Positions 1-4,127 of a stretch of DNA of 64,000 bases are shown piece by piece. The notes beneath the pieces were generated by a model. The model saw only the letters and a list, made by a program, of their open reading frames with translations, did no database searches and was not told the DNA's origin. Position numbers and translations under genes: made by a program. Each line of letters opens with the position of its first letter. The first letter of the stretch is position 1. The stretch is from Candidatus Roseilinea mizusawaensis (GTDB lineage Bacteria; Chloroflexota; Anaerolineae; J036; Brachytrichaceae): positions 1-64,000 of the forward strand of contig JAEANN010000046.1 of NCBI GenBank assembly GCA_016841965.1, given 5' to 3'.

Positions 1-605
<605 letters not shown>

Positions 606-963
606 GATCTACCTCATGAAGCAATCGTGCATGGGCCTGGTTCACGGGAGGCTAAGCGTGTGCATCCGGCGCGGCGCGTTGGTAAGCCGAGCGCCGTCGC
701 ATCCAAAGCTGAGACCTCCTCGCCAGATCAATCTTTTGTGATCTTGGGTGATGAAAAATCTGTGCAGTCTCGGCTCGCGCTCACAAGCTGGCCTGCCTAC
801 CCACCATGCCGACAAAACAAGAACAGATGTGCAAATTATAGGGCTGATGCCCGACAGCGCCCACAAAGCGCGCACAAAGACGTATGCACAAAGAGATATG
901 CACAAGGCGCGTATAAAGTGTGCACGAAGTGCGCGACGCCCTCGATGGCGAGTTGGATGCGTG
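606..963. other. Gene-free interval with spaced CACAAAG repeats
   Basis: No convincing gene is seen between hsdM and the ECF gene; both are on the minus strand. At 862-929 the heptamer CACAAAG or a one-base variant recurs at 862, 873, 887, 901 and 923, with 14-bp spacing for the middle three. This may be an operator or a degenerate repeat of the same kind as the hairpin at 18743-18802. Confidence 0.4.
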
Positions 964-1893
964 CTATGTCCGCTCTGTCTCGAACAGGAAGCGGCGCTTG
1001 AAGCGCAGCAACGCTTTCAGGGTGGGGATGCCGAACAAGGCCAGCAGGATCACATTGCCGGCTGCTCTGAAAGCGTCCCATGTCAGCGAGGTGGCGACAT
1101 AGAACACGAGATAGCGTTGCAGCGTGTCGCCGGCGCTCAGCCCGGCCTGCCAGCTTTGCTCGGGCGAGCCGGCCTGAAACGGCCAGAACCACAGATTCAT
1201 GATCGCGCCATACACAAGCCCCCACAGCGCGCCAAAAATAATCAGCGCCGCCAGTTCACTTTTGCTGTGTGTGTCCTGCGCGCGCGGCGAGCGACCGGCC
1301 ACGCGCCACCACCGCACATTTCCGAGCCAGCCGGCGCTCATGCCCATCCAGCCCGCGGTGAACATTTGATATGGCAACCATGGGCCAATGCCGGCCGTGA
1401 ACAACGCAGACACCAGCATCGACAGCGCCCCCATCAGAAAGCCAAAGCGCGCGCCAAAGACGTAACCGCTCAGGATGATGAGCAGAAATATGGGCGTGAA
1501 GCCGCCGGGGCCGGGAAAAGCCGTTTCGGCCATGCGTAGCACGCTGTTCATGGCGATCAGCACACCCAGCAACGCCACCAGCTTTGCGCTCATGGCCTGA
1601 CCTTGTGTCTCGACGATCAGGGCAGCCAGGCACAGCACAATGATCAGCGCCAGGGCAAACGGTGATGACACACTGCCGGCAGTCTGCATGCCGGCGTTGC
1701 CCTGCTGTTGCGCTACCGCGACGGACAGAAAGGGGTAAAGGAAGATCAGGACGCCAATCAGCGCCGTCAAGGTGTAGATGCCCGCGCTCAACGCGCGCTG
1801 CACTGCCCGGCCGGCAAATGCCAGCCGGCCTGTGTGGGGCCGGTCGAGGCTGTTGGCTTTGCCAAAGCCGGCTGCGATATCGTGCGCGGTCAT
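964..1893 (-). CDS. ECF transporter S-component, probably for cobalamin
   Basis: This 309-residue integral membrane protein resembles ECF substrate-binding (S) subunits, which capture a vitamin in the membrane and dock onto an EcfA/A'/T module. Hydrophobic segments lie near residues 35-60, 80-100, 105-120, 130-185 and in the C-terminal third. The glycine-rich FLLIILSGYVFGARFGF segment and the PWLPYQMF stretch look like S-component loops. It is the last gene of a three-gene minus-strand operon behind a cobalamin riboswitch and starts 6 nt after the stop of the preceding gene, so B12 or a corrinoid is the likely cargo. No EcfA or EcfT genes are in the window, so a shared energizing module elsewhere is inferred. 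Confidence 0.72.
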   Translation of the reverse strand: MTAHDIAAGFGKANSLDRPHTGRLAFAGRAVQRALSAGIYTLTALIGVLIFLYPFLSVAVAQQQGNAGMQTAGSVSSPFALALIIVLCLAALIVETQGQAMSAKLVALLGVLIAMNSVLRMAETAFPGPGGFTPIFLLIILSGYVFGARFGFLMGALSMLVSALFTAGIGPWLPYQMFTAGWMGMSAGWLGNVRWWRVAGRSPRAQDTHSKSELAALIIFGALWGLVYGAIMNLWFWPFQAGSPEQSWQAGLSAGDTLQRYLVFYVATSLTWDAFRAAGNVILLALFGIPTLKALLRFKRRFLFETERT

Positions 1894-1899
1894 GTCAAC

Positions 1900-2607
1900 T
1901 CACCCTGTGTTCTTCCGGCTGCTGTTTTGCCTTCGGCTGGCTGCAAACAGAATGGCGCTCAGCGCGACAACAATCCCGGCGAATGCAATCAGCCCGTTTG
2001 AATTCGTCTCTGCGCCGGCCTGTTGGGTAGCCGCCGGCGTGAGCGTGGGGGGCGCATTGGCGACCGGCGCGCTCGTGGCCGGCGCATTTGGCGTTGCCTC
2101 AGACGCGGCGCATACCTGGTCAATCGTCATGGCCGGCGGCGATACACTGGCGCCATCCACCTTGCCGGCTCCCCACACCCATGCCTGCATGTCGCCATCT
2201 TTCACTGTCGTGTTCGACGCGCCGAGCGTGGCGTATTTCCACGCACCGTCAACCTGCACGAACGAAATCCAGTAAATGCATGTGGCGTTGATATCCTCAC
2301 ACCGGCAAAAGCACGACTGAGCAGGGTAGTTACAGCCTTCGTCCCCGATCTTGCACACCGCCACGCCGAAGCTGCCCGGCGCGATGACCAGCGGCAGCGC
2401 CGATCGCCGCAGCAACTCATATCCGCTAATCTCTGGCTCGTCGAATTCGACGCAGCGCGCGTCTGTGCTTTTATCTGCGTATTGCACAACAACGCCGGCG
2501 CGATGGCGTGGGGCTTGCGCCTGGCCGGGCGCGATCGAAACCGGCGCGCTTGCCCATAGGGTGACCAGACTGACCACTGTGACTACGAGACGACGCAGGG
2601 ATGGCAT
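1900..2607 (-). CDS. Secreted, C-terminally anchored DUF4430/transcobalamin beta-domain-like protein
   Basis: The 235-residue protein has an N-terminal signal peptide (about 1-28), a globular domain (about 35-165), a Pro/Ala/Thr-rich linker and a C-terminal membrane helix (about 207-225) followed by positive charges. The domain carries SGYELLRRSAL, GVAVCKIG, a cysteine cluster (CFCRC) and YATLGASNTTV, which fit the DUF4430 fold related to the C-terminal domain of intrinsic factor and transcobalamin. It lies between a prenyltransferase-repeat barrel protein and an ECF S-component in a B12-regulated operon, so it probably helps bind corrinoids at the cell surface. Family assignment is by motif resemblance only. 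Confidence 0.65.
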   Translation of the reverse strand: MPSLRRLVVTVVSLVTLWASAPVSIAPGQAQAPRHRAGVVVQYADKSTDARCVEFDEPEISGYELLRRSALPLVIAPGSFGVAVCKIGDEGCNYPAQSCFCRCEDINATCIYWISFVQVDGAWKYATLGASNTTVKDGDMQAWVWGAGKVDGASVSPPAMTIDQVCAASEATPNAPATSAPVANAPPTLTPAATQQAGAETNSNGLIAFAGIVVALSAILFAASRRQNSSRKNTG

Positions 2608-2617
2608 GGTTAGTCAG

Positions 2618-2650
2618 GCGTCCGGCCTGCATGACACGCAGGCCGGACGC
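2618..2650 (-). other. Intercistronic 13-bp perfect hairpin
   Basis: GCGTCCGGCCTGC and its exact complement are separated by 7 nt, between the barrel gene stop (2658) and the next start (2607). There is no T-run, so it is more likely an RNA stability or processing element, or a REP-like palindrome, than a strong terminator. Confidence 0.7.
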
Positions 2651-2657
2651 GCACAGC

Positions 2658-3665
2658 TCACTTTGCAATCAGCGAGACACGGAAGAGGGCCGGAATCGCG
2701 CCGAACGTGGCCAGCGCATTGTCACCGGGCATACTGGCCTGATAGGCGATTGATCCGCTCGGTTGTTGCAGCGTGATCAGCACGCTGAGCGGGTTGCCCT
2801 TTGCAGCCGCCCAAGCTTCTGGTGCAATGCCGGCTGCAATCATCGCCTGCACAACCAGTGCTGTCGAGTTGGCATTGCTGTCCGTGCCGTAGTCCGATGG
2901 GTTCTGGTATGGGAATCCGCCATCCTCGTTTTGCAGACCTTTCAAGTAGCCCAGCCCCCGTTCGATCACTGCGTCTTTGGGCGACCGGCCCGAGGCGATG
3001 AGCGCCTGAATGGCCAGCGCGGTAGTGTCCACATCCGGCGCGCCGCTGCCCATGAATGACCAACCGCCGCTTGCGTCTTGCAGCGATTCCAGCGTGGTGA
3101 TGGCTTTGGTGGGCGCTTTGACGCCGGCATTCGCCAGCGCAATCAAAGACAACCCGTGCACAAACACATTTTCGCCGATGACGCCGGTCTTCTCGTTGTA
3201 GCCGGCCAGAATCATGCGCGTCAGGTTGCGGAACCCAAAGCGCTGTGGATTTTGGCCGGCGGCTGTGACGGCCAGCGCAATTTTGGCAGCCTGGCCGGTA
3301 GTCAACTTGCGCCGCGACATCTGAGCGGCCAGAAAATCGAGCGGCGTGCGGCCGGCTGCTGAACGCGTGGCCGTCACGACTTTGCCGGCTGTGGCCAATG
3401 CAAAAGCGGCCTCTGCGGTGGCGCTCAGATCGCTGCCCGCCGCAAAGCCGTTGCCAAAGCCGCCGTCGCGTTCTTGTTTGCTGATCAGCCAGTTGGCTGC
3501 TTTGTTGCCGGCGTCCGTAACGGCGTCACGGACGGCGTCACGGACGGCGTCGGATGGAATGCCGGCATACACAGGGACAGGCCCCAGCGTGGTGGATAGA
3601 ACCAATGCAACCAGCGCCAGCGCGTGGCGTGGCGTGCGAATTCCTTTTACATGCAACGTGCTCAT
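2658..3665 (-). CDS. Secreted alpha/alpha-barrel (prenyltransferase-repeat) protein, intrinsic-factor-like
   Basis: The 335-residue protein has a signal peptide (about 1-33, ending near VPVYA) followed by repeats of the alpha6/alpha6 prenyltransferase/squalene-cyclase type: QERDGGFGNG, LQDASGGWSF, LQNEDGGFPYQ and LQQPSGSIAYQ. No class II cyclase DxDD motif is seen, so it is not expected to be an enzyme. Intrinsic factor and transcobalamin use the same barrel followed by a DUF4430-like domain; here the two parts are separate adjacent genes. The ATG at 3665 is preferred over an upstream TTG because it starts a clean signal peptide, although AGGAG lies a rather long 12-13 nt upstream. It is the first structural gene after the riboswitch and terminator. 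Confidence 0.7.
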   Translation of the reverse strand: MSTLHVKGIRTPRHALALVALVLSTTLGPVPVYAGIPSDAVRDAVRDAVTDAGNKAANWLISKQERDGGFGNGFAAGSDLSATAEAAFALATAGKVVTATRSAAGRTPLDFLAAQMSRRKLTTGQAAKIALAVTAAGQNPQRFGFRNLTRMILAGYNEKTGVIGENVFVHGLSLIALANAGVKAPTKAITTLESLQDASGGWSFMGSGAPDVDTTALAIQALIASGRSPKDAVIERGLGYLKGLQNEDGGFPYQNPSDYGTDSNANSTALVVQAMIAAGIAPEAWAAAKGNPLSVLITLQQPSGSIAYQASMPGDNALATFGAIPALFRVSLIAK

Positions 3666-3728
3666 AAACGCGTCTGATCTCCTCTTGAGGTTACCCGGAT
3701 TAACCGGTGGCAACCTGATCTTGAAAAC

Positions 3729-3758
3729 TAAAAAACCCCAGCCTTCTTCAGACTGGGG
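3729..3758 (-). terminator. Rho-independent terminator in the B12 leader
   Basis: On the minus strand an 8-bp stem (CCCCAGTC with GGCTGGGG, one T-G pair) with a 7-nt loop is followed by six T. It lies between the aptamer and the first structural gene, the expected place for the expression platform. Confidence 0.85.
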
Positions 3759-3809
3759 TGCAGAAACGCCTAACGGTCACACCATAAAATTCCGCGTGTG
3801 GACAAACGC

Positions 3810-3827
3810 TCACGGTGCGCGAATCAT
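3810..3827 (-). CDS. Putative six-codon leader ORF (MIRAP-stop)
   Basis: ATG ATT CGC GCA CCG TGA is preceded by a perfect AAGGAGG with 6-nt spacing, the strongest ribosome-binding site in the operon. It lies between the B12 aptamer and the terminator. Translation here could influence terminator folding, or this could be a remnant of a longer gene. Nothing in the peptide suggests codon-specific attenuation. Confidence 0.4.
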   Translation of the reverse strand: MIRAP

Positions 3828-3865
3828 GTTCTGCCTCCTTGCATCGAGAAGGGTCGAACGATTGG

Positions 3866-4073
3866 GTCGAGGCAGGCGTCCTGGCTCTCGCTCGGTAGAT
3901 GAGTAGTCAGTAGTCAAAGGTCAGAAGTCGTTGATCTGGCTACTGATTGCTTTGTACTGGCTACCCGATGAGCGATTACAGTTGCGGCACAGCGCTGGAC
4001 TCGGTCTGCATGCGCAGCCCCCACCAGCTTCCACCTTTAAGCCCTGGCATCCGGGCGCTCGGGTCACCTCGAC
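3866..4073 (-). ncRNA. Cobalamin (adenosylcobalamin-class) riboswitch
   Basis: On the minus strand the leader contains the closing stem P1 (GTCGAGG near 4073 with CCTCGAC near 3866), the signature GCCGCAACTGTAA, and the 3' B12 box AGCCAGGACGCCTGCC just before P1 closes. The span is about 208 nt, normal for Rfam family RF00174. It lies directly downstream of a strong promoter and upstream of a terminator, and controls the three corrinoid-uptake genes. Its peripheral arm (about 3899-3962) contains heptamer repeats GTAGTCA found elsewhere in the window. Confidence 0.9.
3903..3930. repeat. Heptamer repeats inside the riboswitch arm
   Basis: Four consecutive heptamers, GTAGTCA twice, then AAGGTCA and GAAGTCG, lie in the variable arm of the cobalamin aptamer. 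They match the start of the array at 54497. Confidence 0.7.
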
Positions 4074-4099
4074 GTTCTTCAGTTGTTAAGGTCGGAAGC

Positions 4100-4127
4100 A
4101 TTATAGCGAGCGTTGCGGGTGTGTCAA
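4100..4127 (-). promoter_or_regulatory. Sigma-70-type promoter of the B12 operon
   Basis: TTGACA (4127-4122) and TATAAT (4105-4100), both perfect consensus, are separated by 16 nt. Predicted transcription start is near 4093, about 20 nt before the aptamer P1 strand. Confidence 0.85.

Follow-up and report, generated by a model that had tools for sequence, protein, structure and literature searches.

In a 64,000-nucleotide stretch of Candidatus Roseilinea mizusawaensis contig JAEANN010000046.1 (hereafter the window, to which positions refer unless a locus or contig handle is given), the minus strand of positions 964-4127 carries three genes that very probably form a riboswitch-controlled operon for the uptake of a corrinoid (vitamin B12 or cobinamide), combining capture by a split transcobalamin with import by an energy-coupling factor (ECF) transporter. 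The genes encode a secreted alpha/alpha toroid (T), a secreted protein with a predicted transcobalamin-type beta-grasp fold (B) and an ECF S-component (S). The original prediction, made from the sequence of this locus, had proposed a split intrinsic-factor-like cobalamin uptake system, and that overall reading is supported by the fold of B, by the recurrence of the riboswitch at related loci and by the kinship of S with the cobalamin transporter CbrT. In the mechanism we propose, scarcity of B12 would lead the riboswitch to allow transcription past the terminator, T would be secreted, B would be secreted and tethered by its C-terminal membrane helix, and S would reside in the membrane. A single corrinoid would be held between T and B on the outside of the cytoplasmic membrane, as transcobalamin and intrinsic factor hold theirs between their two domains, and B would present this corrinoid to S.

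The promoter, cobalamin riboswitch and terminator that had been noticed ahead of the three genes are all present on the minus strand (Table 1). The promoter agrees with the sigma-70 consensus at every scored base, and other promoter-like sites in the rest of the first 6.5 kb reach 9/12 at most. The aptamer scores above the RF00174 gathering score of 31.5 bits, lies upstream of the coding region and is followed by an expression platform, the terminator standing ahead of the T start codon. A fold prediction for the leader contains the terminator hairpin as well. The aptamer is the sole Rfam match across the 64-kb window. The reading frame of T (3713..2658) extends to a TTG at 3713, and its likeliest start is the ATG at 3665, which is preceded by AGAGGAG. 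Only about 50 nucleotides separate T from B, and 6 separate B from S, so that the three genes are consistent with a single operon.

Table 1. Features of the T-B-S locus and of the adjoining gene in the window
Feature	Positions	Strand	Evidence
Sigma-70-type promoter, TTGACA-16-TATAAT	4100..4127	-	Consensus bases 12/12
Cobalamin riboswitch aptamer, RF00174	3854..4086	-	42.5 bits, E 2.3e-7, model 1-189 complete
Intrinsic terminator, riboswitch expression platform	3735..3759	-	10-pair stem, 5-nucleotide loop, T tract
T, secreted alpha/alpha toroid, 335 amino acids	2658..3665	-	Pfam SQHop_cyclase/Prenyltrans, signal peptide
B, secreted protein of predicted transcobalamin-type beta-grasp (SLBB) fold, 235 amino acids	1900..2607	-	AlphaFold2 model, C-terminal membrane anchor
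S, CbrT-family ECF S-component, 309 amino acids	964..1893	-	Pfam ECF_trnsprt E 3.2e-14, CbrT profile match
Start of hsdM, type I restriction, outside the uptake system	3..605	-	HsdM_N 6.5e-30

The arrangement is conserved among relatives. B occurs in 28 of the 60 nearest genomes and in 77 of the 301 Chloroflexota genomes surveyed, which come from 42 of 178 genera. A same-strand cobalamin-class riboswitch lies just upstream of the first toroid gene in 26/27 of the relatives' T/B loci, bearing out the expectation that the trio would be found with RF00174 matches in related genomes; since these genomes hold only about one to four cobalamin riboswitches each, a chance association was considered and rejected. 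S was found in 25/28 B-positive and 0/32 B-negative genomes (Fisher test, 6e-14), and in each of the three B-positive genomes without S the B locus lies near a contig end. In many relatives the operon runs on into genes for EcfT, of the CbiQ type, and for an ATPase that is a double EcfA; the L092 operon is one that has all of these. Where B is missing, the riboswitch serves a different transporter: in each of the 20 riboswitch loci inspected in B-negative genomes, what lies behind the riboswitch encodes a BtuF-type binding protein, a FecCD permease or both. The trio and BtuFCD therefore share one regulated slot, which is filled by a CbrT-type ECF system in some related genomes and, in relatives without the trio, by a system whose binding protein, permease and energy-coupling design are unrelated to those of the trio.

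The identification of the third gene product as an ECF S-component was confirmed by its match to Pfam ECF_trnsprt and refined by profile comparison. A profile of 15 S homologues matches the S-component of ECF-CbrT (6FNP) over the whole domain at E 7.7e-24; this is its best PDB match, with the next S-component at E 7.3e-4, and the window S sequence alone matches 6FNP at E 4.2e-4. ECF-CbrT from L. delbrueckii is a biochemically proven cobalamin transporter (PMC5997447). By sequence, S is a member of the CbrT family of S-components, and its transport function is predicted. S differs from CbrT in an extra N-terminal section of ~95 residues with additional hydrophobic segments, and no extracellular partner resembling T or B has been described for CbrT.

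The kinship of S bears on the alternative that T and B are surface traps or stores of B12 whose cargo is delivered by a BtuFCD-like transporter, S serving another vitamin. A transporter of that kind exists in the host, where one Peripla_BP_2 (BtuF-like) protein is followed by a FecCD permease, with no riboswitch nearby (C49:92852-95067, L123), and some relatives have both the trio and a BtuFCD-type system. However, S is a relative of CbrT, is never found without B in the 60 genomes and is fused to B in two lineages, and the host BtuF-like gene lies near neither of the two host riboswitches. We consider this alternative very unlikely.

B had been described as a secreted DUF4430-like protein with a C-terminal anchor. 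Its signal peptide and a C-terminal transmembrane helix at residues 205-223 support secretion and anchoring, but likeness to DUF4430 did not emerge from sequence comparison. A Pfam scan of B and 19 homologues gave no match, DUF4430 included, save to fused partner domains; searches of B against the PDB by phmmer and by profile gave nothing significant, the profile matches being low-complexity tails; the B profile showed no significant match to two confirmed DUF4430 domains (probability 3%); and Pfam DUF4430 was found in none of 60 related genomes. B matches NCBIfam SCO2322_fam (NF040672) at a sub-threshold 8.9e-6. The fold, in contrast to the sequence, agrees with the original description. An AlphaFold2 model of B (mean predicted local distance difference test score 82, core >90) has as its first 19 PDB matches members of the DUF4430-like/transcobalamin/intrinsic factor/haptocorrin group, all with probability 1.00, and the group that follows stands at E 0.03. 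These 19 comprise 3u7z (a putative metal-binding protein of Ruminococcus), the isolated human transcobalamin beta domain with and without cyanocobalamin, full transcobalamins, intrinsic factor and haptocorrin, and the template modelling score reaches 0.84 on 3u7z (normalized by target) and 0.65 on 5no0. Furthermore, strands 73-78 and 81-87 of the model form a beta-hairpin directly after helix 62-68. A two-strand hairpin inserted after the helix defines the transcobalamin clade of SLBB (Burroughs et al. 2007, PMC1796856), and the B model shows this feature. Judged from the model, we regard the fold of B, that of the transcobalamin/intrinsic-factor beta-domain family, as settled. A cysteine-rich loop with nearly invariant C85, C92, C99 and C101 is peculiar to the B family. 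Several relatives (loci L088, L089, L093, L098, L103 and L109) encode two different B proteins in tandem; paired SLBB proteins have been seen in other phyla (Burroughs et al. 2007, PMC1796856).

T carries a signal peptide and matches the Pfam toroid families SQHop_cyclase and Prenyltrans, as anticipated for a secreted alpha/alpha barrel with prenyltransferase repeats. Its match to Pfam Cobalamin_bind ('Eukaryotic cobalamin-binding protein') is weak (E 0.0011, 18.4 bits, under the cut-off of 25), and 7/19 T homologues match that family at E<0.01, the best at 1.3e-6. T also matches NCBIfam SCO2321_fam (NF053823) at 2e-27, under the curated cut-off. The structure search for T, for which a natural B-T fusion served as query, returned terpene cyclases first (E 1e-7) and transcobalamins after them (E 3e-5 to 2e-4). 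The structural expectation of the original prediction was thus borne out for both proteins, B leading to the transcobalamin/intrinsic factor family throughout its top 19 matches and T to a toroid with transcobalamin among the matches.

That the best sequence and structure matches of T are squalene-hopene cyclases raises the alternative that T is an enzyme, whether a terpene cyclase that is or once was active or one of another kind, and that B is an unrelated surface protein, in which case the operon would serve to make a B12-dependent product and not to take up B12. However, the DXDD acid motif of the cyclases is not conserved, being replaced by DTNT, DSNS, DVDT or similar in 19/19 aligned T proteins, which makes a cyclase function unlikely, and we rejected T as a terpene cyclase on this ground. 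T is moreover secreted, and its homologues bear C-terminal LPxTG-like or plain membrane anchors or S-layer domains; fusions of T to B recur, and an archaeal homologue is joined to a BtuF-type binding protein; and S, EcfT and EcfA mark a transporter operon. An enzymatic role for the operon thus appears highly improbable. The archaeal protein, from Methanocalculus (L063:2041-3996 (+)), combines a BtuF-like periplasmic binding domain with a toroid of the T type and suggests that toroids also serve BtuFCD systems. At another locus, a 917-residue protein behind a riboswitch contains three toroids in tandem (L103:7303-10056 (-)).

In the window, T, B and S are encoded by separate genes, in line with the original view that the two folds of intrinsic factor and transcobalamin appear here as separate bacterial proteins beside a vitamin carrier. 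A toroid and a beta domain in one polypeptide, as in the animal binders, are found in some relatives. These fusions take the form B-T (L091, L155), B-T-T (L051, L053, L064) or T-T-B (L171, L173), the last being toroid-first as in animals. In two lineages (L051, L053), B is fused to S. Occurring in fusions with both T and S, B would be well placed to bridge them, and we regard these fusions as the best genomic evidence for such a role. More tentatively, the membrane-anchored B may serve as lid and docking piece, passing the corrinoid from the toroid to S, and the animal intrinsic factor family may derive from such a pair, an idea that we find plausible enough to entertain, though we lean slightly away from it. 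A 1327-residue frame, L170:5434-9417 (+), reads S-EcfT-EcfA-EcfA, so that a single chain makes up an almost complete ECF transporter. In Firmicutes relatives whose S is homologous (L071, L081), a riboswitch precedes giant surface proteins in which toroids and S-layer anchors accompany a genuine DUF4430 domain.

The gene content of the host points to a need for such a system. TP_methylase matches in its genome number only two, a MazG protein and a 312-residue protein that we interpret as RsmI; none of the TP_methylase matches examined is a corrin-ring methylase, so that the corrin ring cannot be made. Seven host proteins contain B12-binding domains, among them one of MetH size (1203 residues) and one mutase-type subunit whose gene adjoins a MeaB-like one. 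With B12 enzymes and no corrin-ring methylases, the host needs corrinoids from outside.

A further alternative concerns the cargo: the same proteins might mainly scavenge the lower ligand or a corrinoid that is incomplete (cobinamide, cobyric acid), and not complete cobamides. The host and both congeners retain CobS, which serves nucleotide-loop assembly, the B12 regulon is known to include S-components for dimethylbenzimidazole (CblT/CblS), and CbrT carries cobinamide besides cobalamin (PMC5997447). However, the relatives G014 and G035 have the trio with no CobS match, which favours complete cobamides as cargo. A toroid with a beta domain suits a large ligand, the known use of the pair being to stack B12 between them (PMC1796856), and S matches CbrT. 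We judge uptake mainly of incomplete corrinoids or lower ligand to be rather unlikely.

For import, S would have to join an ECF module. EcfT and the double EcfA adjoin the trio in many relatives, whereas the host EcfT lies on another contig and the ATPase outside the operon. In two congeners (L105, L106) EcfT directly follows S; in the window S is directly followed by hsdM, and the orthologous EcfT is found on contig C16, where it follows hsdR directly at the left end. This probably reflects the insertion of a type I restriction-modification system between S and EcfT, with both ends of the insertion at contig breaks. Contig C16:517-4770 (L115) encodes a RAYT-like transposase as well as hsdR. 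The double EcfA at C48:69135-70907, next to another EcfT and 65 kb off on the same contig as S, is the only strong candidate for an ECF-type ATPase in the host. We propose that S would work with the C16 EcfT and with ATPases encoded elsewhere, for which this double EcfA is the candidate. The general view is that ECF transporters can do without extracellular binding proteins; if the hand-off from B to S is real, the present one would have such proteins dedicated to it.

Several observations weigh against corrinoid uptake by the trio as proposed here. The host operon holds no dedicated ATPase, and the host also has a BtuF/FecCD-type transporter, which is not behind a riboswitch; in some relatives the trio and BtuF/FecCD-type systems coexist. 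The nearest structural matches of T are terpene cyclases, with transcobalamin ranking lower, and sequence comparison does not tie B to DUF4430. The arrangement of T and B, moreover, could not be read from modelling: an AlphaFold2 model of a B-T fusion (L051, residues 1-450) has a good toroid and a poor beta domain, with three beta sequences in the alignment.

The general idea is already published, and the present system is a variant of it. An earlier account predicted that transcobalamin-like SLBB proteins of bacteria, which are often joined to toroids and encoded beside CbiO/CbiQ, scavenge B12, and proposed that the animal B12 binders stem from them; it covers Low-GC Gram-positives, planctomycetes and euryarchaea and notes such SLBB proteins, predicted to be extracellular, in B12 auxotrophs (Burroughs et al. 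2007, PMC1796856). The system described here shares with those SLBB (DUF4430) proteins the toroid partner, the predicted extracellular location and the proposed scavenging role. Unlike them, B escapes Pfam DUF4430, and its gene is in most cases separate from that of the toroid; that account mentions neither riboswitches nor Chloroflexota. Animal transcobalamin, intrinsic factor and haptocorrin likewise consist of a toroid and a beta-grasp domain with the transcobalamin-clade hairpin, and are likewise secreted, but they are single polypeptides served by an endocytic receptor, whereas here T and B are separate and the partner is an ECF S-component. B further differs from the animal beta domain in its membrane anchor, its extreme sequence divergence and its cysteine-rich loop. 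The distant, sub-cut-off matches of T and B to Streptomyces SCO2321 and SCO2322 (NF053823, NF040672), families with no function assigned, are adjacent in numbering, and by this token look like actinobacterial counterparts of T and B; nothing relevant was found in the literature on SCO2321-2324. Our literature search, whose coverage left out many subscription journals, found no description of the Chloroflexota system. What is new is the divergent split beta family, the riboswitch control, the CbrT-type partner, the B-S fusion, the replacement of BtuFCD and the occurrence in a phylum that the 2007 account does not list.

These results describe a widespread, riboswitch-marked and genetically coherent system for B12 capture in Chloroflexota, the beta half of which current Pfam annotation misses. 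With small soluble proteins, the 2007 prediction that intrinsic factor has bacterial ancestors or cousins can now be tested directly.

Two minor observations concern the host genome and the window. A second host cobalamin riboswitch precedes a 381-residue protein on contig C11 (L104:4724-5869 (-)) that has no Pfam, NCBIfam or PDB match; a counterpart with 66% identity follows a riboswitch in a congener (L169:5583-6761 (-)), and inspection by eye hints at a MetE/UROD-type enzyme that does not depend on B12. Between S and hsdM, at window positions 856-905, lie the short tandem repeats AGCGCCCACAA and GCACAAAGACATAT, possibly an insertion scar.

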